Part shown: piece after piece, positions 17,414-28,393 of the stretch
Position numbering within the stretch: position 1 is the first letter of the stretch
How the letters are laid out: every line of letters starts with the position of its first letter
NCBI GenBank assembly: GCA_003643835.1
Contig: QMKX01000013.1
Coordinates: forward strand, 1-41,307
Source of the DNA: Campylobacterota bacterium
GTDB taxonomy: Bacteria; Campylobacterota; Campylobacteria; Campylobacterales; Arcobacteraceae
Length of the DNA stretch: 41,307 bases
Direction: 5' to 3'
The notes under the pieces: model-generated
Seen by the model: the letters and a program-made list of their open reading frames with translations, nothing else
Told to the model about the DNA's origin: nothing
The model's database searches: none
Translations under genes and position numbers: made by a program

Positions 17414-18057
17414 ACAGGCTTAAAACCTTGTTTAGTTTGGCAAAACTCTACAACCAAACATTTATCACAATCAGGTTTTTTTGCCTTGCATATATACCTC
17501 CCAAACAAAACAAAAGCTTGGTGAAGTATATTTAAGTTTGTCTTAAAAATTTTTTCTAATTTTATTTTTGTTTGCTCTACTGTTTTATCTTTGCTTAAAC
17601 CCAATCTATGAGACACACGAAAAACATGAGTATCTACAGCCATTATATTAGCGCCATATAACTCTATTAGATATACGCATGCTGTTTTTTCTCCTACGCC
17701 GCTGAGTGTTTGAAGCTCTTTTTGTGTATTTGGTATTTGGTTGTTGTATTTTTCTTTGACTTGTGTCGCCATACTTAAAAGATTTTTTGCCTTGTTGTTA
17801 AAAAAACTACAACTTTTTATGAAGTGTTTTATATCATCAAGCCTTGCTTCACTCAATGATTTAATATCCGGATATTTTAAAAAAAAATTTTGTGTTATAA
17901 TATTTACACGCTTATCGGTGCATTGTGCGGATAAAATTATCGCTACGAGCAACTCGTAACCACTTTTATAATCAAGCTCTGTTATGGCATCTTTATAATT
18001 TGCCACAAATATATCTTTTATTTGTAAAAAATCCTTTTTTGCAAGAGTTTTGATAAT
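17410..18057 (-). CDS. nth: Endonuclease III (base-excision repair)
   Basis: A DNA glycosylase/AP lyase for oxidised pyrimidines. The helix-hairpin-helix LSGVGEKTACVYL carries the catalytic Lys, the catalytic Asp is in AVDTHVFRVSHRLGL, and the C-terminal [4Fe-4S] motif is C-x6-C-x2-C-x5-C. The only conventional start is GTG at 18006. However, the in-frame sequence upstream (KKDFLQIKDIF) matches the family's first helix, and Nth proteins normally have about 16-20 residues before this point. I therefore extend to an ATT at 18057, with AGAGG just before it. The true start is uncertain. The extension overlaps the upstream stop slightly or abuts it. Confidence 0.9.
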   Translation of the reverse strand: MIKTLAKKDFLQIKDIFVANYKDAITELDYKSGYELLVAIILSAQCTDKRVNIITQNFFLKYPDIKSLSEARLDDIKHFIKSCSFFNNKAKNLLSMATQVKEKYNNQIPNTQKELQTLSGVGEKTACVYLIELYGANIMAVDTHVFRVSHRLGLSKDKTVEQTKIKLEKIFKTNLNILHQAFVLFGRYICKAKKPDCDKCLVVEFCQTKQGFKPV

Positions 18058-18062
18058 GCCTC

Positions 18063-19481
18063 TTAATATATGGCTTGTGGTATTTTATTTTTATACTTTG
18101 TCATAGTTTCACCTATGTTAGCATTTGTAAATGTAGGATCAGCTACATAATATATCTTGCCATTTACCTTATATCCATCACCTTTTATTCGCGAACTCAA
18201 AGCCACTGCCGAAGCTATATGATCTTTGTATTTTAAACCTATTACATCTATGTTTAATAAATTTTTGACTAAATAACTAAACAATATCGTCCTATCTTCA
18301 CAATCGCTATATCTATAATACAAGGTCTCTTCAGGAAACAACACTTTTTCATATTTGAAGTGATTTTGATCTGTTTTATACTCAAAAGAGTTTTGAACAA
18401 ATCTTAAAAGTATGTTTACTGCTTCTACTTCTTTTTTACCATCAATAATTTTTCTCAAACTTTCAAGTAGTTTATCTTTTGTTAGACTTGATACTTTAGT
18501 ATCAAAATATACTTTATAATCACTTTGTGGATATGAATGATAAAAATCTATCAAATTTTTGTTTAGTGTAGCTTCAACATTGTGTGTTTTTTTGTAGTAT
18601 CTAAAACTATATTTTTTTGCGAGTATTTTATTCTCAAATTTCAATGGCTTTTCTATTTTGAAGCTTAATTCTTGAAGTTTTTTGCTATAGCTTGTCTTGT
18701 ATGTTCTTATATTTGATAAGTTCTTTGCTCTTCCTGTTGGGTCAAGAACATAGTATCTTTTGTCGTTGATATAAAAATAAGAAACTTGATACAGTTTGTG
18801 CGATATACCGCTAAGCAGATAAACTTGTTGCGTGTTGTATCCAATTTTTGTATCCAATCCTAACTTTGTCAGCACAAACCAAGTGAAAAGATTTGCTTTG
18901 TTTTTATTTGAATAAAACTTCATACCCATTTTATAAACAAACTGGTATTTTGCCCAGTCGTTCAATTGCATATTGCTAAAATGAAACTCAAATTGTCTTA
19001 TAAGAGGTTTGTAATCCTTTTTTGAAAAATCAAACCAAAATTTAGCTATTGTATTTTTTGATATGTCATTTATAAAAAAATCAAATTTTTTATTGTATGC
19101 TACTTGAGATATAGTGCCAAAAAAGCTTATACCCACAAGCATATCTTTGTTTAACAATTTTATATCTTTTTTTAGCAAGTCTTTTATTTTTCTTTTTTTG
19201 ATTGGTTTTATTTTGATTGTTTTTGAATTTTTTATATCTGCTGCTCTTTTTTTAGTCTCTTTGTTTTTAGAAGGCAATTTGTTTGGTTTTGTTTTTTTGT
19301 ATCTTGTTTGGTTTTGTTTTAACTTATACTCTTTCCAGCTTTTTTTCAAACCATTTGCAAATGCCCTGTCTTGATTTGCTTTATAAGTGTCATATTTTTT
19401 ATTTTGCTTTTTAGCCCACTCATCGTATGAGACAGTATATGCAAGCGATATAACCAAACACAAGCTTATAAATATTTTCAT
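18063..19481 (-). CDS. Secreted transglutaminase-like protein
   Basis: A 472-residue exported protein with a signal peptide (KIFISLCLVISLAYT), a Lys-rich basic segment (about 20-110) and a C-terminal transglutaminase-like domain. The candidate triad is Cys394 in YSDCEDRTILFSYLV, His421 in KYKDHIASAV and Asp448 in YYVADPTF. A region at about 195-250 (LFTWFVLTKLGLDTKIGY, RYYVLDPTG) resembles the same domain but lacks the Cys and His. It could be a peptidase or protein cross-linker of the envelope. It is the first gene of the superoperon, with ATG at 19481 and AAGGA upstream. The family call is good; the substrate is unknown. Confidence 0.78.
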   Translation of the reverse strand: MKIFISLCLVISLAYTVSYDEWAKKQNKKYDTYKANQDRAFANGLKKSWKEYKLKQNQTRYKKTKPNKLPSKNKETKKRAADIKNSKTIKIKPIKKRKIKDLLKKDIKLLNKDMLVGISFFGTISQVAYNKKFDFFINDISKNTIAKFWFDFSKKDYKPLIRQFEFHFSNMQLNDWAKYQFVYKMGMKFYSNKNKANLFTWFVLTKLGLDTKIGYNTQQVYLLSGISHKLYQVSYFYINDKRYYVLDPTGRAKNLSNIRTYKTSYSKKLQELSFKIEKPLKFENKILAKKYSFRYYKKTHNVEATLNKNLIDFYHSYPQSDYKVYFDTKVSSLTKDKLLESLRKIIDGKKEVEAVNILLRFVQNSFEYKTDQNHFKYEKVLFPEETLYYRYSDCEDRTILFSYLVKNLLNIDVIGLKYKDHIASAVALSSRIKGDGYKVNGKIYYVADPTFTNANIGETMTKYKNKIPQAIY

Positions 19482-19518
19482 TTTATTCCTTAATCTTCAC
19501 AACTATCTCATATATTAA

Positions 19519-19527
19519 ATAATACCA
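19519..19527 (-). promoter_or_regulatory. Promoter of the 16-kb superoperon
   Basis: The minus strand reads CTGGTATTATTTAATA, an extended -10 (TGG TATTAT) about 40 nt upstream of the start at 19481. It lies between the lipoprotein terminator and the transglutaminase-like gene and is the only good promoter before a series of coupled genes ending at 3393. Confidence 0.55.
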
Positions 19528-19561
19528 GACATTTATAGAACTTCTAATCATAAACAAAAAC

Positions 19562-19590
19562 AAATCAAGAGAACAAAAATCTCTTGATTT
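19562..19590 (-). terminator. Terminator of the lipoprotein pair
   Basis: AAATCAAGAG and CTCTTGATTT form a 10-bp stem with a 9-nt loop, followed on the minus strand by GTTTTTGTTT. It lies 7 nt after the stop of the small lipoprotein gene. Confidence 0.8.
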
Positions 19591-19596
19591 GCTAAT

Positions 19597-19767
19597 TTAT
19601 TTATTTAGCTCTTTGTCAAGTGCTTTGTCAGCCTGATCGGCTTTAAACTCTTGATACATCTGTTTCTCTTTTGGGTCCTTTTTTGGTTGTGGTTTTGATG
19701 CACATCCAGCAAACAAACCAATCGCTAATCCACATACTACTATGGTAGACAATATATTTTTCAACAT
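19597..19767 (-). CDS. Small lipoprotein resembling the tail of LPP20
   Basis: A 56-residue lipoprotein. The N terminus MLKNILSTIVVCGLAIGLFA leads to a lipobox LFAGC with Cys22 as the lipidated residue. The mature part is a short hydrophilic helix (KEKQMYQEFKADQADKALDK). That helix matches the last 25 residues of the upstream LPP20-type protein (EQAMYQRF...QA...LNKELEK) at about 13 of 23 positions. The ATG at 19767 is close behind the upstream gene's stop at 19771, so the two are co-transcribed. Probably a partner or truncated paralogue of its neighbour; function unknown. Confidence 0.8.
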   Translation of the reverse strand: MLKNILSTIVVCGLAIGLFAGCASKPQPKKDPKEKQMYQEFKADQADKALDKELNK

Positions 19768-19770
19768 AAT

Positions 19771-20358
19771 CTACTCGCTTGCTTTTTCAAGCTCTTTGTT
19801 TAGCTCACCATTTGCTTGTGAAGCGAGAAATCTTTGATACATAGCTTGCTCATTTTTAAATGATGTTTTGATGGCTTTCTTCATAGAATTGCCAACATCT
19901 CCTGACTTGACTACTACCAAAAGATACATCTCTTTTGTTGTTGGGTGTATCCACATCTCTACAGATTTTGAACCACTTAAAGTTTCATTTGTCAGCTGTT
20001 TTGATACCGATGATGTTGCTTTGTCAAATGTGCTATCAGCTTCACTTCCTGTAGTGCCTTTATATTGTTTAAATAAATTTGCAACTTTCACTCTTATTTG
20101 CGATGCTAATTTGTCTCTTCCATCGGCTAAAGCTTCACTTCTTTGAAATGACACATCTTTGCCTGCATTTGGCTTTGATATACCAACCTCTGCTATTGAA
20201 CCCTCTGATTGTGGATTACATGTCCATTTTGGTGCTAATACACCATGCCACTTACAAGTAAAATCATCTTTTGTAGGTTCAGTGGGTTTGCTTGAACAAC
20301 TCACTAAAAAAAACACCGAAATTATTGTAATTATACTTATATTTATGAAATTTTTCAT
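19771..20358 (-). CDS. LPP20 family lipoprotein
   Basis: A 195-residue lipoprotein with signal KNFINISIITIISVFFLVSC and lipidated Cys21. The mature domain (about 34-165) has the LPP20 pattern GSIAEVGISKPN followed by QRSEALADGRDKLASQIRVK and a VEMWIHPTTKEMYLLVVV strand. A C-terminal helical tail follows. In Helicobacter pylori Lpp20 is an outer-membrane lipoprotein and antigen; its function is not settled. It has its own promoter at 20385-20390 and GGAG before the ATG. Confidence 0.85.
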   Translation of the reverse strand: MKNFINISIITIISVFFLVSCSSKPTEPTKDDFTCKWHGVLAPKWTCNPQSEGSIAEVGISKPNAGKDVSFQRSEALADGRDKLASQIRVKVANLFKQYKGTTGSEADSTFDKATSSVSKQLTNETLSGSKSVEMWIHPTTKEMYLLVVVKSGDVGNSMKKAIKTSFKNEQAMYQRFLASQANGELNKELEKASE

Positions 20359-20384
20359 AATACTCTCCTTTTAAATAGTTGTGA

Positions 20385-20390
20385 ATTATA
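20385..20390 (-). promoter_or_regulatory. -10 element of the LPP20 operon
   Basis: The minus strand reads TTGTAGTATAATTC, an extended -10 about 27 nt upstream of the LPP20 start, with a T-rich upstream tract. It fits sigma-70 promoters of Campylobacterota. Confidence 0.6.
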
Positions 20391-20456
20391 CTACAATATG
20401 CTTAAACGAAACTTTTAATCAAAAACTAATAAAATATTTAAAGCAACCTTAAAATA

Positions 20457-20954
20457 TTACTGACAAACAATAGATGTAAGTTTTTTTTCTTTATAATAAT
20501 ATGTAGTGTTTATATAATCATATTCAAATTGTTCAAAGTGGCTTTTTGCACCATCACTACAAAGCTTAAAATACTCTTTGTTTGGATATATTTCGTTGTT
20601 TTGTTTACCTTTTTTGCCTACATATACGATACAATCGTTTAAAATTTGATTCTCATATGTCGTTACTTTTCCATCTTTTATTGGTGTTCTGTCATATCCT
20701 CTTTCTCTTATGTCAAGGCTTTTAAAATACTCTTTTGATAAATTTAATATAGCAATAGCATTAAACCACGAGTTTTTTTCTTGTTTTATATTCATAACAG
20801 CTCTATATATACTATCAGATTTTCGCCAAGATGGTTCTTGGTCAAATACTCTTTTGTATCCGCTAACCTTAACATATTTTATCATATCGTTGGTGATGCC
20901 GTGCTTATACAACTCATCTGGGTGCAAAAGCGAACCAAATACTATCAAGTTCAT
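20457..20954 (-). CDS. Gamma-glutamylcyclotransferase-like (AIG2/GGCT fold) protein
   Basis: A protein of 165 residues from the ATG at 20954 (MNLIVFGSLLHPDEL). The FGSLL motif matches the [YF]GSL substrate loop of the GGCT/AIG2 fold. SLDIRERGYDR provides the RE..YxR pattern with the candidate catalytic Glu. Family members release 5-oxoproline from gamma-glutamyl amines or peptides, or degrade glutathione. An in-frame ATG at 20987 would add 11 residues and overlap the kamA-like gene by 23 nt; the motif position favours 20954. It is the third enzyme of the GntR/ATP-grasp/KamA cluster, suggesting it trims or recycles a gamma-glutamyl-type conjugate. That pathway role is inference. Confidence 0.75.
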   Translation of the reverse strand: MNLIVFGSLLHPDELYKHGITNDMIKYVKVSGYKRVFDQEPSWRKSDSIYRAVMNIKQEKNSWFNAIAILNLSKEYFKSLDIRERGYDRTPIKDGKVTTYENQILNDCIVYVGKKGKQNNEIYPNKEYFKLCSDGAKSHFEQFEYDYINTTYYYKEKKLTSIVCQ

Positions 20955-20964
20955 ATTTTTGCTT

Positions 20965-22557
20965 TTATTGATAGTTTTCAAATCCATAAGACTTGTTATA
21001 CTCTTGCATACTCATATCAGGATATGGAACCTCTTCATCACTCCAAGGTTTTTTCAATATATAATCTCCGCCCTCATTTATCTGCTTGACATTGTCTTTA
21101 TGCAGAGGTATCTTGCCGCCAGCAGTTGCTAAATATCTAGGAATTGCATCGCCACTTATGTTGCCATACATACTCTCTACTATATCTCGCCCCACACTTA
21201 TAGGCACTCTCATATGACCAAATTCTGGGTTTCTAAAACTACAATTAAACAGATAATACGGTCGTATATAACACTCTTGTAGCAGTTCGCATAGTTTCCA
21301 CATCTTTATTTTATCATCATTTATACCTCGAAGCAACACCGCTTGATTTAGTATAGCGCTTGTGACGCCGCTTAGTTTTCTAAATGCTTCTTTGACTTCT
21401 GGAGTTATCTCTTGGGCTGTGTTGATTTGGGTTACAAATCTAAGTGGTTTTATATCGTTTGATTTTCTGCATATTTCTAAAAACTTGTCATCTATTCTTT
21501 GTGGTGTCATCACAGGAATTCTACTGCCTATTCGTTTGATTTTTATGTGGGGTATTTTGTCTAACTCTTCAAACAAATACTCCAACCTTTTGTTTGAGAG
21601 TGCCAAAGCATCGCCACCTGTTATGAGAACATCTCGCACTGTTGTATCTTGTCGTATATAATCCAAAGCTTCTTCATAAGTTCCCTTGCTACTCACCCAG
21701 TCTTTGTCTGATATGTGATCAAGTCTCAAACAATAAGTGCAAAACATAGCACACATATTGGTTGCTTTTATTGTCAGCACTCTTGGATAAAATTGATCTA
21801 TCAATCTTGCAGGCGAATGATCACTTGCTACTGGTTCTATATTTATACCTTTATTGTCTATCATATCTCCCGTTGGCACGCTTTGTAAAAGTATTGGATC
21901 ATTTACAACACCTGGTATTATCAAACTTGCATAATATGGTGAAATTCTCATACGAAATACTCCTACTACTCTTTGGATATCATCTATAAGTTTTTGTGGT
22001 ATTTCCAGTATTTGTGCCAATTGCTCTCCTGATGTTATTGCATATTTTATCTGACCAGCATAGGAGTTCCACGATTCATCACTCATATTTAATTTTTTTT
22101 GAATTTTTTCTCTATTTTTTTTCATTTTAGATTGTAAGTCAAATCCACTTGGTGCTACTTTGGTATGATTATTTATATAATCTTGCACTCTTATATTTGC
22201 ATTTTCAACGATAGGCAAGGCAGAAAACACCCTGCCACCTACACTAACACCATGTTCATCGGTGCTTTTATGCTTGTGTGCCATTAGTTTAATCTCATAT
22301 TCATCTAACCCTATGTCTGTTGGGGTTGCTCCATATTGTTCTTTTATTTTTTTAAGTTTGACAAACAACTCTACTATTGGCTTGGTTAATTTATTTGAAG
22401 TTTTTGAAAACTCAAGCCACTGTTTTGCCTCGTCTATATCTATTTTTGACACCTCTTTTTTTTCTATTTTTGTTTCATATAAAAAATCAAAAAAAATTTT
22501 ATCAAATTTATCTAATTTATTTATATCTATACTGCCTTGTTCGCCACATTCCATCAT
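20965..22557 (-). CDS. KamA family radical SAM protein (non-lysine 2,3-aminomutase-like)
   Basis: A 530-residue radical SAM protein. The [4Fe-4S] motif CAMFCTYC gives Cys269, Cys273 and Cys276. The KamA region FRMRISPYYASLI, DVLITGGDALAL and the PLP-lysine motif AGGKIPL (Lys482) are present, so it should bind SAM, an Fe-S cluster and PLP. It is about 110 residues longer than classical lysine 2,3-aminomutase, with an N-terminal extension to about residue 165. The two aspartates that bind the lysine side chain (Asp293 and Asp330 of the clostridial enzyme) align with Ser440 and Thr478 (or Tyr475 in an ungapped alignment). Lysine is therefore an unlikely substrate. The start overlaps the ATP-grasp stop (ATGATG) after AAAAAGG. 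Confidence 0.85.
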   Translation of the reverse strand: MMECGEQGSIDINKLDKFDKIFFDFLYETKIEKKEVSKIDIDEAKQWLEFSKTSNKLTKPIVELFVKLKKIKEQYGATPTDIGLDEYEIKLMAHKHKSTDEHGVSVGGRVFSALPIVENANIRVQDYINNHTKVAPSGFDLQSKMKKNREKIQKKLNMSDESWNSYAGQIKYAITSGEQLAQILEIPQKLIDDIQRVVGVFRMRISPYYASLIIPGVVNDPILLQSVPTGDMIDNKGINIEPVASDHSPARLIDQFYPRVLTIKATNMCAMFCTYCLRLDHISDKDWVSSKGTYEEALDYIRQDTTVRDVLITGGDALALSNKRLEYLFEELDKIPHIKIKRIGSRIPVMTPQRIDDKFLEICRKSNDIKPLRFVTQINTAQEITPEVKEAFRKLSGVTSAILNQAVLLRGINDDKIKMWKLCELLQECYIRPYYLFNCSFRNPEFGHMRVPISVGRDIVESMYGNISGDAIPRYLATAGGKIPLHKDNVKQINEGGDYILKKPWSDEEVPYPDMSMQEYNKSYGFENYQ

Positions 22558-23930
22558 TTGTCCTTTTTATTATCTTGTGTGATAGTCCAAGCTATCAGTT
22601 TTTTTCCCATATCTACACCTGCCTCTACATCTTTGTAGTTTTGCCCTGTAGCGATAACGCGTGCTAAAAATGAGCCTTCATTTACAAAAAACTCTTGTCC
22701 TACATGCTCCAATATCATATACTCCTTTGTTAGTTTACTTGAAGCTACTGCTTCAAACATCTCTATTTCGCCTCGTTGTTGAGGCAAATAGCTTATCGTT
22801 TTTAGTCTATTTTTTAGTTTTTGATTATAAGTCGCCCAATATATATTTTGTTTCAAAGCTTCTATATTTACCATATTTGGTGCTTTATTATCTTTAATCA
22901 CTGCATAAAATTCAATCTCTGGTAAATTTGGTGCGCCAACAGGCAACATAGTATGCAAACTGCAACAAAACTCCATAGTGGTGCCTTGTTTTCGTGGATT
23001 TACTTCTATAAAATAAATCTTATTTTTATTTGTAGTGATAAAATCACACCCATATATGCCTCTATATCCCATCTTTGCCATAGCAAGTCCTACTTGTATT
23101 GTCTGTTTTTTTATCTCTTGCTGTATATGCGGTGGTGTTTTAGATGGGCAAGTTGAACCTCTAAAGCTAGTTCCTTCTATACTCTGGTCAGCAATACCAG
23201 CAAAATATACATAATTTTCATTTATAACAACCGCAAGAGATGTAGGATCACAAGTATGTTTTATATATGAAGTTATCAAAAATATATCTTGAGTTTTGTT
23301 TTCAAATCTATTTTTGATATCATTTATGTTTGATGCAATTATGCTATTTGCTCCAGCAGCACTTTGCTCCAATGACACAAAAAGTTTATCGTGTGTTTGA
23401 AAAAGTTCATTTGCTTTTTTTATAAGTTCGACATAATTATTTGCTACAAAATGATCAGCCATAGGCACGATACTGCTAAAAATCTCATACAATGATATCT
23501 TATTTGATAGGGTTTTCACTATATCACTCTTTGGGCCAACTACTACTATATTATTTTTTTTATCAATTGTCATAAATTCGCTTGATTCAAACATATATAC
23601 ATACAATTTTGTTTGATTTTTTAAAATTTTATCGGTTAGTTTATCTAAGTAACTACTATTTGATATATCTTTCATAAACTCATCGTGTGGTTTTCTTTTG
23701 TTTTCTTTTGTTTTGATATGGTTGATTATAATCAAATTTTCGTAGTTGTATTGTTCAAATATATCAGGAGCTATTGTAATACAAACAATTTTATACTCTG
23801 GTATATCCAATGCTTTTGATATAGCTATCTTGAAAAAATGCCCCAATCCATAAGCTTTGAGCTCGCTTATAAATAGAAAATGATACTTGCCTTTATCATA
23901 TACAAAGTTAGTCCATCTTATATCTTTCAT
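22554..23930 (-). CDS. ATP-grasp ligase
   Basis: A 458-residue ATP-grasp protein. After an N-terminal Rossmann-like part, the nucleotide-binding lysine is probably Lys144 (LSNKISLYEI). A Gly-rich segment SAAGANSII follows near 190-198. The metal-binding strand GYRGIYGCDF (Asp296) and IYFIEVNPRKQGTT (Glu309, Asn311, Arg313) complete the fold. Such enzymes join a carboxylate, through an acyl phosphate, to an amine. The substrate cannot be read; carboxylate-amine or peptide ligases are closest in layout. It is coupled to gntR (ATGA) and to the radical SAM gene, so the two enzymes are probably made together. Confidence 0.8.
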   Translation of the reverse strand: MKDIRWTNFVYDKGKYHFLFISELKAYGLGHFFKIAISKALDIPEYKIVCITIAPDIFEQYNYENLIIINHIKTKENKRKPHDEFMKDISNSSYLDKLTDKILKNQTKLYVYMFESSEFMTIDKKNNIVVVGPKSDIVKTLSNKISLYEIFSSIVPMADHFVANNYVELIKKANELFQTHDKLFVSLEQSAAGANSIIASNINDIKNRFENKTQDIFLITSYIKHTCDPTSLAVVINENYVYFAGIADQSIEGTSFRGSTCPSKTPPHIQQEIKKQTIQVGLAMAKMGYRGIYGCDFITTNKNKIYFIEVNPRKQGTTMEFCCSLHTMLPVGAPNLPEIEFYAVIKDNKAPNMVNIEALKQNIYWATYNQKLKNRLKTISYLPQQRGEIEMFEAVASSKLTKEYMILEHVGQEFFVNEGSFLARVIATGQNYKDVEAGVDMGKKLIAWTITQDNKKDK

Positions 23931-24595
23931 ATATTTTTTTCTACCAGCTTTGCTATTTTTTTGCCTGTTTGTATGTAGTGGTCTCTTATGGCTCTTTCTA
24001 CTTTTTTTGCGTTTTTTGATTTTATACTATCTATTATAACTTGGTGTCTGTCTATGATATTTTGTTTTGAATACAATTTTGACCAGTTTTCAAAAAATAA
24101 CAACTTTGATTTTATATTAACTTGGTCAAGAGTATTTAACAAAACTTTATTGTAACTATATTTTAGCACTGATTTATGAAATTTTGTTCCTATATCTATC
24201 TGATTTTCTCCATCGTTTAAAATATCTTGCTTCATATTGGTGACTATATTTTCAAGCAGTATTATATCCTCTTTGTCATGTTCTCTCATAAAATCATTTG
24301 ACAAATAACCCTCGACTAAACCTTTGGTATGATAGGTATCTAACACTTGAGCTGGTGTGATGGTGTTTAGAAATATGCCCACTCTATCTACTTTTATAAG
24401 TATGCCAACAGCTACTAACTCAGATAAAGCTTCTCTAACAGGAGCACGGCTTATACTTAGTTTATTGCTCAACGATGTTTCCGTGATATGCTCTCGTGGC
24501 TTATACTTTTTATCTATTATAGCTTGGTATATATAGTTTATAACTACTTGTCTCAAAGACATTTTATCGTGAGTATAAAGTCCGTCTATATTCAT
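23927..24595 (-). CDS. GntR family regulator, FCD type
   Basis: A 222-residue regulator. The N-terminal winged helix (about 12-75) includes ETSLSNKLSISRAPVREAL, the GntR recognition helix. The C-terminal all-helical FCD ligand-binding domain contains FHKSVLKYSYN and RDHYIQTG near its end, consistent with the metal/acid-binding His residues of the fold. Such proteins usually respond to organic or amino acids of the pathway they control. It leads the operon, with AGGAG before the ATG at 24595. Two palindromes upstream at 24838-24878 are probable operators. Confidence 0.9.
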   Translation of the reverse strand: MNIDGLYTHDKMSLRQVVINYIYQAIIDKKYKPREHITETSLSNKLSISRAPVREALSELVAVGILIKVDRVGIFLNTITPAQVLDTYHTKGLVEGYLSNDFMREHDKEDIILLENIVTNMKQDILNDGENQIDIGTKFHKSVLKYSYNKVLLNTLDQVNIKSKLLFFENWSKLYSKQNIIDRHQVIIDSIKSKNAKKVERAIRDHYIQTGKKIAKLVEKNI

Positions 24596-24707
24596 ATATC
24601 TCCTTTTTTGTTTTCTTTAGTTTTCATATATAGTTTATAACTACTTGCCTCAAAGACATTTTACTACGAGTATTGTTTATGCTCATATTCATATATCTAC
24701 TTTTTTG
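24529..24707 (-). repeat. Tandem copies of the gntR 5' end
   Basis: Segment 24529-24610 (the first 22 codons of gntR and its ribosome site) and segment 24626-24707 align without gaps at an offset of 97 nt, with about a dozen mismatches. A third short match (TTCATATATCT) lies at 24800-24810. The upstream copy is clipped by a stop after VVINYI. Confidence 0.85.
24624..24692 (-). pseudogene. Truncated gntR 5' copy (22 codons)
   Basis: The upstream copy reads MNMSINNTRSKMSLRQVVINYI then TGA, against MNIDGLYTHDKMSLRQVVINYI in the intact gene. The last 11 residues are identical, with at least one synonymous change. The divergent residues 3-10 suggest a remnant of a second regulator gene rather than a fresh duplication. 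Its ATG and start context resemble the intact gene, so it might still be translated as a leader peptide. Confidence 0.6.
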
Positions 24708-24837
24708 CTTCTATGGCGATATCATACACGATAAAAGCAAATTTTGTTCTCCTCGTCTATCGCTATAGTTGGTAAATTGTTGTTTAATTGCCTATATAAT
24801 TCATATATCTATTATTGACAAACACCGCTACATAAAC

Positions 24838-24878
24838 ATTGTCGACAATTACATAAACATTGTCGACAATGTTTATGT
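24838..24878. promoter_or_regulatory. Paired operator-like palindromes
   Basis: ATTGTCGACAAT occurs at 24838-24849 and again at 24859-24870, 21 bp apart centre to centre, about two helical turns. The second is the core of a perfect 28-bp palindrome, 24851-24878, whose left half is ACATAAACATTGTC. The core fits the t.GTNNAC.a pattern of FCD-type GntR operators. The sites lie directly downstream of a TATAAT facing gntR. Confidence 0.7.
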
Positions 24879-24881
24879 GAA

Positions 24882-24887
24882 ATTATA
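24882..24887 (-). promoter_or_regulatory. -10 element of the gntR/ATP-grasp/KamA operon
   Basis: The minus strand reads TTATTGTGTTATAATTTCAC, an extended -10 in T-rich context. The expected start of transcription, near 24876, falls inside the 28-bp palindrome, so a bound regulator would block initiation or escape. This leaves a leader of about 280 nt before the gntR ATG. Confidence 0.6.
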
Positions 24888-25060
24888 ACACAATAAACTA
24901 AAACGAATTGAAAAATTGAAAAATTTTTAAAATATATGAATATAAAGCAATCAAACCAAAGGTCAAGTATATACAAAAATATAGGGTGCGAATAGAACAA
25001 AAATGACAAATATAGCTATTTGAAATATATCAATATCTAAAGACAAATAAATTCAATCTT

Positions 25061-25093
25061 ATATTTTGCCCCAGACAAGTCAGGGGTTCCGAG
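25061..25093. repeat. Dispersed hairpin repeat, type A copy 1
   Basis: ATATTTTGCCCCAGAC then AAGTCAGGGGTTCCGAG. CCCC pairs with GGGG and GAC with GTC around an A-A mismatch. It is identical over 33 bp to the copy at 26415-26447. Confidence 0.85.
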
Positions 25094-25316
25094 AACAAAC
25101 AAAAATATATTTTATTTTGTTGGTTGGTTTATATATTATATCATTGTGAGGCAAAGCCGATATAAAAGTTAATTTTTATTGGTTTGGCTAAATACTTTGA
25201 AGTTTTTTTGTATCGCTTGTATTTGAGTTAATACGTGTGTATGATATTATAATTGGTTCGAACACCAATAGATTTACAATCTGTTTTGTTTTAAAAATTT
25301 CTTTTTTATTTATTTT

Positions 25317-25344
25317 CCACCTAAACTATGATTAGTTTAGGTGG
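25317..25344. terminator. Strong inverted repeat, possible terminator
   Basis: CCACCTAAACT and AGTTTAGGTGG form an 11-bp perfect stem around ATGATT. It lies downstream of the phase-variable barrel gene. The flanking T-runs suit the plus strand better than the minus strand, so whether it ends that gene's transcript is unclear. Confidence 0.5.
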
Positions 25345-25395
25345 GTATTTTATGCTTAAATTATAAAATAGTTTTGATTTCGAAATGTTTGTTTA

Positions 25396-26185
25396 TCAAA
25401 AATACTTTACTATACCTATCATAAGATCAATACCGCCGCCATCTACTGTCTCTACTTCTGTATTGTCAATAGTTCTTCCATCTACTACAAATGTCTTTTT
25501 TTCTTTATAGCTTACACTATAGGCTTTGGCTCCACCTACGAAATATAAACTGGGATTAATCTCAAATTCGTCTTGTAACATAACATGCACTCCAGTTGCG
25601 CTTTCATACTCTTGCTCATATTTTAAAGCGTTTATTAAATTAATGTCATCGAATGTCATCTCAAGTTTAGCTCCACTATATGTGCCAAATCCACCACCAA
25701 ATTTTAAGTTATGTTTACCTGCAACTTGTTTTTTCATCAATATTGACAAAAGAACAGTATTTCTACTAAAATCGCCAGTGGCATTGCTCACAGGTGTCAT
25801 AGACGAAGTTTGCTTTCCCACTGATAACTCTACATCAAAAGTTGGATTTATAACATATCCTATATACAATGAGCCACCAAAACCGCCACCAGCTGATAAG
25901 GTTATATCATCACCATTTGTTGCTGTGCCAATTTTATCATCTTTAAAACCAAAGCCGGCTGCCATATTTGCTCCAACATAAATGTTGCCTTTGTTTGCAC
26001 TACTATCTTCAGCAAAACTGCTTGTGGTTGTTGCTAAAACTATAGCAGATGTGAGACCTACTACTCGTAGTAAGTCTTTGCTAGTTTTTTGAAAACTATT
26101 TAAGAAGAAGCGACTATGTGTCCCCCCCCCCACAGGTTTTGTCTTGGTTGAAACTATTTTCACTCAAGTTTGTCATTTTTTTCAT
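25396..26185 (-). CDS. Phase-variable outer-membrane barrel protein (poly-G, OFF as sequenced)
   Basis: The barrel frame runs 25396-26163. It contains a hydrophobic export segment (LLRVVGLTSAIVLATTTSSFA, shown split: residues LLRVVGLTSAI and VLATTTSSFA), then amphipathic strands rich in Gly, ending LMIGIVKYF with a C-terminal Phe. The only start with a ribosome site is the ATG at 26185 (GGAGAAAAT ATG). That frame passes through a run of ten G (26122-26131) and stops at TAG 26114-26116. With nine G it would fuse to the barrel frame and give about 262 residues. An internal ATG at 26163 is in the barrel frame but has no ribosome site. The gene is therefore probably switched by slippage and OFF here. 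The long n-region before the export segment is unusual. Confidence 0.8.
26122..26131 (-). repeat. Poly-G phase-variation tract
   Basis: Ten consecutive G on the minus strand (C on plus), within codons 19-22 of the ribosome-site frame. G-tracts of this length in 5' coding regions are the main contingency loci of Campylobacter and Helicobacter. Confidence 0.85.
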
Positions 26186-26282
26186 ATTTTCTCCTTTTAT
26201 TTATCTAAACTATGAAAACAATTTAGAAGTGAAGCCATTTTACTCAAACAAACTTAAAAGAACTTATATTTCAATATATATA

Positions 26283-26325
26283 TGCTATTTCTACATTTTG
26301 CCCTAAATAAATTTAGGGTTCCGAG
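26283..26325. repeat. Dispersed hairpin repeat, type B copy 1
   Basis: A 43-bp unit ending CCCTAAAT AA ATTTAGGG TTCCGAG; the CCCTAAAT/ATTTAGGG arms pair perfectly. It is identical to 26769-26811. An inverted relative (CTTCGGAACCC...TTCGGGGCCAAAG) follows at about 26338-26368. Confidence 0.85.
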
Positions 26326-26414
26326 AAAATACAATCACTTCGGAACCCGCAACTTGTTCGGGGCCAAAGTTTCATACTACTACAAATAAAAATATATTAT
26401 TTTGTTGCTTATTT

Positions 26415-26447
26415 ATATTTTGCCCCAGACAAGTCAGGGGTTCCGAG
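26415..26447. repeat. Dispersed hairpin repeat, type A copy 2
   Basis: Identical over 33 bp to 25061-25093, with the TTTTGCCC head and GGGTTCCGAG tail shared by type B copies. Confidence 0.85.
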
Positions 26448-26480
26448 TATATAAATATATTCTATTTTATTGATTATTAA

Positions 26481-26600
26481 TATTTTGCCCTAAACCAGAA
26501 AAGCTGGTGCGGTTTGCGAAGCAAATTTCTCTGATAAGTAGTTTAGGATTTCGAGATATCTATAATAGTCTCGGAACCAAAGAACTTGTTCGGGGTAAAT
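26481..26600. repeat. Dispersed hairpin repeat, expanded copy
   Basis: Begins TATTTTGCCCTAAAC and its arm returns as GTTTAGGATTTCGAG at about 26541-26555, with about 45 bp of other sequence in the loop. An inverted copy of the tail (CTCGGAACC...TTGTTCGGGG) follows at about 26570-26595. Confidence 0.65.
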
Positions 26601-26768
26601 CGTTCGAGCTACTATAAACGGAAAATATCTTGATATTATTCAAGGGAACTTCTAAATACCACTCCCAAACCCCAATTTTATTCAAAACAAGAGAATCGCT
26701 TTTCACGAAGTGAAAATGTTTCTATAAAAGCTTAAACAACCTACAACTATAAACAACCCAAAATATAT

Positions 26769-26811
26769 TGCTATTTCTACATTTTGCCCTAAATAAATTT
26801 AGGGTTCCGAG
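26769..26811. repeat. Dispersed hairpin repeat, type B copy 2
   Basis: Exact 43-bp repeat of 26283-26325, including the TGCTATTTCTACA flank outside the hairpin, which marks the mobile or recombining unit as larger than the hairpin alone. Confidence 0.85.
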
Positions 26812-26914
26812 TGTAAAAAATATATACTATTTTGCTGATTAGTTTATATTGTGAAATAAACACATGATATATAAATTTAGTAAAAAAGAGACTTAAGTAT
26901 AAAAATATAAGGCA

Positions 26915-27260
26915 GGTATGATAGTAAGCTGTGTTTTGTATTTGATGATAATTTATCTAATCTTTAAATCGCTTTAAAGCTTATGCGACAAGCTAATAGA
27001 ATATAAAAAACTATATCCCAAAGTGAAGTTTACCATACTTGTCTTGCTACAGGTTGGGTTTACATAGCTATATGAATTGCTTCAAATACTGGTGAGCTCT
27101 TGCCTCACCTTTTCACCCTTGCCTTTTGGTTTCCCAAATGGTGGTTTGTTTTCTGTTGCACTTATCCCTTAGGTTGCCCTAGCCATCGGTTAGATGGAAC
27201 CATACTTCACAGTAGCACAGACTTTCCTCTTGAGAAACTCAAGCTATCATCTATCATACC
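26915..27260 (-). ncRNA. rnpB: RNase P RNA (type A)
   Basis: The catalytic RNA that matures tRNA 5' ends, about 346 nt. The ends pair to form P1: GGTATGATAG at the 5' end (27260-27251) with CTATCATACC at the 3' end (26924-26915). Conserved elements in order on the minus strand are GAGGAAAGTC (P4 5' side, 27231-27222), AGTGCAACAGAAAACAAACC, GGTGAAAAGGTGAGGCAAGAG then CTCACCAG (shown in parts), GTAAACCCAACC, and a 3' region ATACAAAACACAGCTTAC (P4 3' side). It stands alone between the repeat region and the divergent gene run. The variable helices are very AT-rich. End positions follow from the P1 pairing and the promoter spacing. Confidence 0.93.
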
Positions 27261-27266
27261 TTTTGT

Positions 27267-27272
27267 ATTTTA
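27267..27272 (-). promoter_or_regulatory. -10 element of rnpB
   Basis: The minus strand reads TATTTTATGATAAAATACAA; TAAAAT lies 6 nt before the predicted first base of the RNA at 27260, the expected distance. Confidence 0.6.
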
Positions 27273-27308
27273 TCATAAAATATTTAAGGACACCTCAAAA
27301 AAAATAAT

Positions 27309-27338
27309 TTACTTGTATTTATGAAAAGATGATATAAT
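27309..27338 (+). promoter_or_regulatory. Promoter giving a leaderless transcript
   Basis: A perfect TATAAT at 27333-27338 with a TTACTT -35-like element at 27309-27314, spaced 18 nt. The expected first transcribed base coincides with the A of the ATG at 27345. Confidence 0.6.
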
Positions 27339-27344
27339 AACACT

Positions 27345-27464
27345 ATGATAAATATCGACAAACCAAAACCACAAACAAACAAAGCTTGGATACCATTCAA
27401 ACCAAACAATACAATACTTTTTGCTTTGTATATTTATGGCATACATAAAGATATAAATATATGA
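27345..27464 (+). CDS. Small 39-residue protein, coupled to the sugar transferase
   Basis: A 39-codon reading frame (MINIDKPKPQTNKAWIPFKP...NTILFALYIYGIHKDINI). The stop overlaps the next start as ATGA at 27461-27464, the same coupling used by known genes here. It has no ribosome site; TATAAT ends 6 nt before the ATG, suggesting a leaderless mRNA. The C-terminal half is mildly hydrophobic. I do not recognise it. It could be a true small protein or a leader that couples translation to the transferase. Confidence 0.5.
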   Translation: MINIDKPKPQTNKAWIPFKPNNTILFALYIYGIHKDINI

Positions 27465-28393
27465 TAGTATTAGGCCAAAAATATGTTTTCACTTCGCTTG
27501 AGACGAAACAATTAAGCAAAAAATTTAGCACTATCGTAGATGTTGTATACAAAGACAAAAATCCAGACGATGTCATAACACAAATAGAAAATAATCTAAA
27601 TGGCAGTTTTGTAACCATTGTGCTAAATACAAAAGTAAAAGTAGATGATAAAATTATCAAATATCTTACTAACCTGAAGTTTAGAATCAACAACTCCAAG
27701 CTTAAAATTATGTCTATTGAGCATTTTTTAGAAGAGTATTTATATAAGTGTTATATACCTCAAGACAACGATGATCTACACTATCTTGATGATATTCAAA
27801 AGTTTAATATATATGTCAGGCTTCAAAAAAGAGTTATAGACATACTTGGTGCTGTTGTTTTGTTTGTTGTTTTGTTTTTTGTGAAGTTTAAAGTCAAAGC
27901 AAATATAAAATCCCAATCACCCGGGTATTTGTATTTTCATCAAACAAGAGTTGGACTAAACAATAAAAAATTTACTATAATCAAGTTTAGAACCATGCAT
28001 ATACACGATACACATAGTGATATTCGCACCGCCACAAAAGATGATGAAAGAGTTTTTGAGTTTGGCTTGAAAATACGAAAAAACAGAGTAGATGAGATAC
28101 CACAAGTTTTCAATCTGATAAAAGGTGATATCAGTTTGATAGGTCCAAGAGCAGAATGGGATAAACTTGTAGATGAATATGAAAACAACATACCATACTA
28201 CAATCACAGACACATAGTCAAGCCTGGTATCACTGGTTGGGCTCAAGTGATGTTCACGGAAGGACGAAGCAAAGATGATACAAGACAAAAACTCATGTAT
28301 GATTTGTATTATATCAAACATTGGAGCTTGAAGCTTGAGTTTAAAATCATATTTAAAACAATAACAGTAATGTTTAGCAAAAAAGGAATATAA
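27461..28393 (+). CDS. Undecaprenyl-phosphate sugar-phosphate transferase (WcaJ/PglC-like)
   Basis: A 310-residue initiating transferase of the bacterial sugar transferase family. An N-terminal part (1-115) of unknown fold precedes a membrane helix (RVIDILGAVVLFVVLFFVKF, about 124-143). The catalytic domain then shows FTIIKFRTMH, KNRVDEIPQVFNLIKGDISL followed by IGPRAE, and KPGITGWAQV. It attaches a sugar phosphate to undecaprenyl phosphate, beginning a surface glycan or glycoprotein pathway. No glycosyltransferases adjoin it, so the target glycan is unknown. The start overlaps the small upstream ORF (ATGA). Confidence 0.9.
   Translation: MIVLGQKYVFTSLETKQLSKKFSTIVDVVYKDKNPDDVITQIENNLNGSFVTIVLNTKVKVDDKIIKYLTNLKFRINNSKLKIMSIEHFLEEYLYKCYIPQDNDDLHYLDDIQKFNIYVRLQKRVIDILGAVVLFVVLFFVKFKVKANIKSQSPGYLYFHQTRVGLNNKKFTIIKFRTMHIHDTHSDIRTATKDDERVFEFGLKIRKNRVDEIPQVFNLIKGDISLIGPRAEWDKLVDEYENNIPYYNHRHIVKPGITGWAQVMFTEGRSKDDTRQKLMYDLYYIKHWSLKLEFKIIFKTITVMFSKKGI

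Follow-up and report, generated by a model that had tools for sequence, protein, structure and literature searches.

An Operon of a GntR Regulator, an ATP-Grasp Ligase, a KamA-Family Radical SAM Protein, and a GGCT-Fold Protein: A Candidate Pathway to a Conjugated Beta-Amino Acid

The Locus and Its Four Genes

What does a KamA-family radical SAM protein produce, when it is encoded together with an ATP-grasp ligase and a protein of the gamma-glutamyl cyclotransferase (GGCT) fold? The question is raised by four co-directional, tightly packed genes on the minus strand of a 41,307-nucleotide stretch of Arcobacteraceae DNA (the window), which occupy positions 20457-24595 in the order gntR, ATP-grasp ligase gene, kamA, and GGCT-fold gene. 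An earlier note on this DNA had proposed that the operon makes and conjugates a beta- or otherwise isomerized amino acid, possibly a compatible solute or a small peptide.

The tightly coupled arrangement described in that note was confirmed, with 4-bp overlaps at both the gntR/ATP-grasp and the ATP-grasp/kamA junctions (Table 1). Its gene identities were borne out as well: both domains of the GntR/FCD regulator scored above the Pfam cut-offs, the ATP-grasp and KamA radical SAM proteins passed their Pfam and TIGR00238 cut-offs, and the GGCT-like assignment was supported by an AlphaFold2 model. The GGCT reading frame is open from within kamA; orthologs begin at Met12, so the start likely lies directly after the kamA stop codon. 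Searches of the operon at the level of open reading frames and domains revealed no gene for a beta-lysine acetyltransferase, in agreement with the earlier note, and the KamA of the operon is the only one in the genome. An Rfam scan of positions 18000-28000 detected no riboswitch; its sole match was a class A bacterial RNase P RNA gene (26909-27262, minus strand; RF00010, 233.7 bits).

Table 1. Features of the operon and of its upstream region, in window coordinates.
Feature	Coordinates	Strand	Length, evidence, or remark
Tandem operator-like site	24829..24870	-	Two perfect 21-nt repeats, each with the palindrome ATTGTCGACAAT (24838-24849, 24859-24870)
Partially duplicated gntR 5′ end, soon stopped	24626..24673	-	48 nt, 90% identical to 24529-24576
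GntR/FCD-family transcription regulator, likely autoregulator	23927..24595	-	222 aa; PF00392 and PF07729 above cut-off
ATP-grasp amino-acid/peptide ligase (predicted), nearest BesA and PGM1	22554..23930	-	458 aa; PF02655, profile against PDB, model
KamA-family radical SAM aminomutase (predicted)	20965..22557	-	530 aa; Radical_SAM, TIGR00238, residues, tree
GGCT/AIG2-fold protein, probable gamma-glutamyl(amine) cyclotransferase	20457..20954	-	Alignment, Foldseek; ORF open from 20987 (176 aa)

Lineage of the KamA-Family Protein

The KamA protein passed the Pfam Radical_SAM model and TIGR00238 (237.6 bits against a cut-off of 199.2), and gave a 207-bit match to 2a5h. Its best equivalog was glutamate 2,3-aminomutase (TIGR04368), with a score of 323.4 bits that is half of the cut-off of 650, while its score against lysine 2,3-aminomutase (TIGR03820) was 265.6 bits, below the cut-off of 525. 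In an alignment that uses 2a5h numbering, the CxxxCxxC motif and the equivalents of the PLP-binding Lys337 and of the carboxylate-binding Arg134 were all retained. Positions 293 and 330, which we take to be the sites where Asp293 and Asp330 of 2a5h bind the lysine side chain, are Asp/Asp in all aligned members of the lysine clade and Lys/Asn in 30 of the 30 inspected glutamate mutases that exceed the TIGR04368 cut-off. The window protein has neither pair, carrying Ser at 293 (with an Arg two residues on) and Thr at 330, and a sister group of KamAs that is linked to M20 hydrolases carries Lys/Thr. Since the TIGR04368 score reaches 323 of 650 bits and the Lys/Asn pair is absent, the enzyme may act on something other than glutamate itself. 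The protein also has a long N-terminal extension.

A maximum-likelihood tree placed the ligase-linked KamAs in one clade (support 99/98), which is nested inside the glutamate 2,3-aminomutases (98/97), with the lysine mutases standing apart (96/90). The window-type branch is long (2.56), so the depth of the nesting is less sure than the exclusion from the lysine clade. Judged by tree and residues, the KamA is derived from the glutamate 2,3-aminomutase lineage and is not a lysine 2,3-aminomutase, and we infer that it acts as an aminomutase.

The Ligase and the Putative Release Enzyme

The ligase passed the ATP-grasp_3 model (PF02655) with 44 bits, and five Mg/ATP residues (K144, E309, N311, R313, and K314) were invariant in all 12 family members aligned. 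A profile of these 12 sequences, searched against the PDB, matched BesA first (8yi6, E = 1.7e-9; its database name is propargylglycine-glutamate ligase), and PGM1 at E = 5e-4, in both cases over no more than about 100 residues in the catalytic region; PurT-like and carboxylase ATP-grasps were also matched after BesA. The structure model (pLDDT 87) covers the ATP-grasp ligase fold in full, with Z scores of 23-25 to ATP-grasp enzymes. Its top structural matches were PurK, PurT, and biotin carboxylase, and an amino-acid ligase and a peptide ligase followed about 2 Z units lower. Because BesA is nearest by profile, yet PurK, PurT, and biotin carboxylase are nearest by fold, the protein is likely, rather than proven, to be an amino-acid ligase. 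A relative of the ligase also adjoins a gene for a B12-binding radical SAM protein in three Desulfobacterota genomes that lack this KamA (L154, L155, and L156), where the radical SAM family scan covered one of the three loci.

The GGCT gene product had no Pfam match, and a profile of the family matched nothing significant among PDB sequences; its fold emerged only from the structure model. The AlphaFold2 model (pLDDT 81) was matched by Foldseek to the gamma-glutamyl cyclotransferases 3cry/2rbh (E = 4.6e-8, probability 1.0, TM 0.6). Sequences of this type mostly fall below the Pfam cut-offs; an ortholog in another genome passes GGACT (PF06094). The aligned orthologs share an invariant GSLL loop and an LDxRExGY motif, within which the invariant Glu95 would fit the catalytic Glu by motif. 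These features, from model and alignment, make a gamma-glutamyl(amine) cyclotransferase the probable identity.

Occurrence in Other Genomes

KamA homologs that exceed about 50% identity came from a single Arcobacteraceae genus (4 of 4 genomes), Sulfurospirillum-like metagenome-assembled genomes (MAGs), Desulfobulbales, other Desulfobacterota, and one archaeal-MAG contig. The gene is rare: in the class to which the window belongs, 4 of 397 genomes had a match above about 45% identity, two further matches there being distant KamAs, and in the phylum of Desulfoprunum 4 of 395 genomes did. The archaeal contig (L019) is binned as a Micrarchaeota archaeon; its protein groups with those of Desulfobacterota, so a binning error or contamination is probable. 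No ligase was found beside this gene or beside the KamA relative of L074 (G705), both contigs being short there. The L074 protein is of the window type, 45% identical, with an altered cluster region, CPVHCAHC.

The full order GntR-ligase-KamA-GGCT was found in the window and in four further loci (L013-L016), while L017 begins inside the ligase. Compared with the closer Sulfurospirillum-like MAGs, the proteins of the window showed identities of 81-82% for KamA, 60-62% for the ligase, 52-58% for the GGCT protein, and 43-46% for GntR. Among Desulfobacterota, the ligase lies upstream of KamA in L018, L020, L072, L073, L076, and L077, and in L077 the two are fused in a single 922-aa ORF. Other loci carry a D-Ala-D-Ala-ligase-like ATP-grasp in place of the window-type ligase (L021 and L078), which in L079 is fused to an M20 domain, beside a KamA. 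The slot after KamA is taken by GGCT in Campylobacterota, and by a glutamate-carboxypeptidase-like M20 hydrolase in Desulfobacterota and a third lineage (L018, L020, L076, L077, L021, L078, and L079; L072 contains the first part of an M20 gene), and no such hydrolase was detected after KamA in L073. The two M20 proteins tested had PRK07338, an unnamed hydrolase, and then glutamate carboxypeptidase as best models, below cut-off. A second KamA type (600 aa, with the signature FNTKGKEET) is encoded divergently beside the cluster in two lineages (L018:3052-4851 and L079:4251-6044).

The earlier note had named rare neighborhood and grouping with the characterized lysine 2,3-aminomutases as the two findings that would undo its proposal. 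Neither was obtained: all four genes stand in this order in Sulfurospirillum-like MAGs, the ligase-KamA pair is linked in both Campylobacterota and Desulfobacterota, and the KamA falls outside the lysine clade with both lysine-binding Asp residues replaced. The link to GGCT proved weaker than the earlier note had assumed. GGCT was present in 9 of 9 Campylobacterota carriers tested, of which those belonging to the same genus do not count as independent, and in 0 of 8 carriers elsewhere, and it is adjacent and co-directional in the window and in L013-L017. However, it lies unlinked, on another contig, in three sister genomes from the same genus as the window (G001-G003), and a close GGCT also occurs in three genomes of the class that lack KamA (335 KamA-free genomes were in the class sample), so that the link is strong but not exclusive. 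In G003, 6 bp separate the GGCT ortholog from a preceding gene for an EctB-like diaminobutyrate transaminase (L157:2313-4103), an arrangement that could hint at diaminobutyrate as a partner amino acid; no further ectoine gene was recognized in the 8-kb stretch around it.

A Candidate Operator Upstream of gntR

The tandem ATTGTCGACAAT site lies about 235-275 bp upstream of gntR, with its palindromes 21 bp apart, and two matches were reached in 0 of 100 shuffles. The same tandem, with a 21-bp repeat, was found upstream of gntR in L012-L016, several of them Sulfurospirillum-like, and a single copy upstream in a Desulfobulbus (L020); gntR orthologs occupy the equivalent position in L010-L016 and L020. 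Elsewhere in the genome of the window there was one more match, to the related pattern ATTTGTCGACAAA (C29), and it falls within a coding gene. The arrangement is most naturally read to mean that GntR would autoregulate the operon through this predicted tandem operator, which could serve to find the inducer. The partial duplication of gntR sits in the leader, between the operator-like site and the gene.

A Tentative Pathway and Its Alternatives

We infer the substrate, the conjugate, the order of the steps, the binding of the regulator, and the physiological role, and our preferred reading, a regulated module that isomerizes, conjugates, and releases a glutamate-type beta-amino acid, is held at slightly short of an even chance. 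The KamA, with SAM, PLP, and a [4Fe-4S] cluster, would shift the alpha-amino group of an amino acid to the beta carbon; this amino acid would be acidic or neutral, with glutamate or something closely related to it the likeliest. The ATP-grasp enzyme would join this amino acid to another through an amide bond at the expense of ATP, with a glutamyl cap as the best guess, and the GGCT-fold protein, or the M20 hydrolase in other lineages, would cleave the conjugate to yield the free amino acid. The FCD regulator would control the operon through the tandem operator. A glutamate theme runs across the parts, from the mutase lineage and the BesA-like ligase to the glutamyl-cleaving folds and the TAXI transporters that lie nearby in several loci; the TAXI family includes glutamate binders. 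The interchange of GGCT and M20 in the release slot suggests that the conjugate is reversible, and, together with the exchange of ligase types while the KamA lineage stays constant, it suggests a shared logic in which substrates are joined, isomerized, and split. On chemical grounds, a GGCT would be unable to liberate a beta-glutamyl residue as 5-oxoproline; for GGCT to act on the cap, the cap would therefore have to be a normal gamma-glutamyl group. The product might serve inside the cell as a solute or reserve, or it may be a nutrient intermediate or a specialized metabolite. The compatible-solute reading is weakened by the carriers Desulfoprunum benzoelyticum and Desulfobulbus Tol-SR, which we take to be freshwater isolates.

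The order of the steps might differ, with the ligase first making a gamma-glutamyl dipeptide, whose glutamyl end retains free alpha-amino and alpha-carboxyl groups, the KamA isomerizing the bound residue, and GGCT or M20 clearing or releasing it, in the manner of the butirosin BtrJ/BtrG, BesA, and LysW pathways; the modifying enzyme would be a radical mutase. Such an order, unlikely but deserving serious weight, would fit an active site that is altered at the side-chain end while R134 and K337 are kept, a ligase-KamA fusion that suggests channeling, the ligase-KamA-release order of loci with the window-type ligase, and BesA as the nearest ligase. However, reaction order is not proven by gene order, the isomerized residue itself would not be releasable by GGCT as 5-oxoproline, and we know of no aminomutase that acts on a dipeptide. 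The wider notion of a carrier-protected route, in which a radical SAM aminomutase would act on a dipeptide-held amino acid before its release, with ligases and release enzymes interchangeable across phyla, is rated as rather doubtful. The preferred reading of the release enzyme would also change if GGCT were a passenger, and a functional unit of GntR, ligase, and KamA had landed beside a local GGCT, a suggestion that is compatible with other readings of the ligase-KamA pair. The unlinked copies of G001-G003 speak for it, as does G360, in which GGCT lies alone between prs and mnmA; nevertheless, its occurrence in all nine carriers with just three close homologs among the 335 KamA-free genomes of the class, its adjacent and co-directional placement in the window and L013-L017, and the M20 gene in the equivalent slot elsewhere make it improbable. 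The prs and mnmA genes flank the whole cluster in other Sulfurospirillum-like genomes, and around the lone GGCT of G360 (L165:7282-7797) the remainder of the cluster has either been lost or had not arrived.

The operon could also be catabolic: a conjugate or amino acid would be taken up through a TAXI TRAP or amino-acid ABC transporter and processed as a source of carbon and nitrogen, an FCD repressor would be in control, and ligation would activate the substrate, as it does in the Puu pathway for putrescine. FCD repressors are common in catabolic operons, and the cluster has a TAXI receptor and permease as neighbors in L014-L016 (divergent) and in L018 and L020 (downstream), the latter two with an amino-acid ABC binding protein upstream; in L076, a TAXI receptor lies 4.4 kb away, beside genes for an enoyl-CoA hydratase and an acyl-CoA ligase. 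The presumed freshwater carriers, which argue against a salt role, point the same way. We nevertheless consider this unlikely. In the window, no TAXI or CoA-enzyme gene adjoins the operon; TAXI as part of the window operon was rejected, as the TAXI genes of the genome lie on another contig, without the operator. A lysine 2,3-aminomutase of an N-acetyl-beta-lysine system, or an EpmB-type protein-modifying enzyme, would share the superfamily and the 2a5h match with our KamA, but both lysine-binding Asp residues are lost, the protein lies outside the lysine clade, and no acetyltransferase is present, which leaves that explanation extremely improbable. Identities as AblA and EpmB were rejected on equivalog cut-offs missed by a wide margin, in addition to residues and tree.

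Relation to Characterized Systems

BesA was the best match to the ATP-grasp family among solved structures by sequence, with PGM1 weaker, and the BesA pathway conjugates, modifies, and releases; the window ligase differs in having a KamA as its partner. GGCT, GGACT, and BtrG share with the window protein the fold and the GSL loop, and by motif the Glu of LDxRE would correspond as well, whereas the window-type sequences mostly lie below the Pfam cut-offs. Eam (TIGR04368) is the nearest characterized KamA lineage, and the window-type KamA falls within its clade, but differs in carrying Ser/Thr rather than Lys/Asn, an N-terminal extension, and linkage to a ligase and a release enzyme. No homologs of these ligases, of GGCT, or of M20 were found within about 1.5 kb of 30 Eam loci.

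The literature backs only a neighboring idea, that eam and ablA supply osmoprotectants. The eam gene has been proposed to supply the osmoprotectant beta-glutamate, under the control of Na+ riboswitches (PMC9337991), which is the only role named for it in the literature searched, and ablA has been described as an osmoprotectant supplier (PMC1224877). The AblA/AblB module for N-acetyl-beta-lysine likewise unites an aminomutase and a capping enzyme in one operon (PMC1224877), but the window mutase is not of the lysine type, and its cap would come from an ATP-grasp ligase rather than an acetyltransferase. The operon is a real, conserved, and rare one that extends the aminomutase-plus-capping-enzyme theme. 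The linkage of a glutamate-mutase branch to a ligase and a likely peptide-cleaving enzyme leads to the prediction of a conjugated beta-amino acid, for which the operon points to an undescribed pathway and provides a testable gene set, and the easy annotation "lysine 2,3-aminomutase" is corrected.

No described equivalent of the operon was found in open-access full text, a scope outside which most subscription journals lie. Within that scope, yodQ together with kamA returned nothing, and BesA returned only unrelated uses of the name. The sole co-mention of an aminomutase or KamA with ATP-grasp concerned the Pbo cluster of a plant-pathogenic Pseudomonas, where each word occurs once. Genes for glutamate 2,3-aminomutase were common, with 104 carriers among the 299 genomes sampled from the phylum of Lachnospiraceae.
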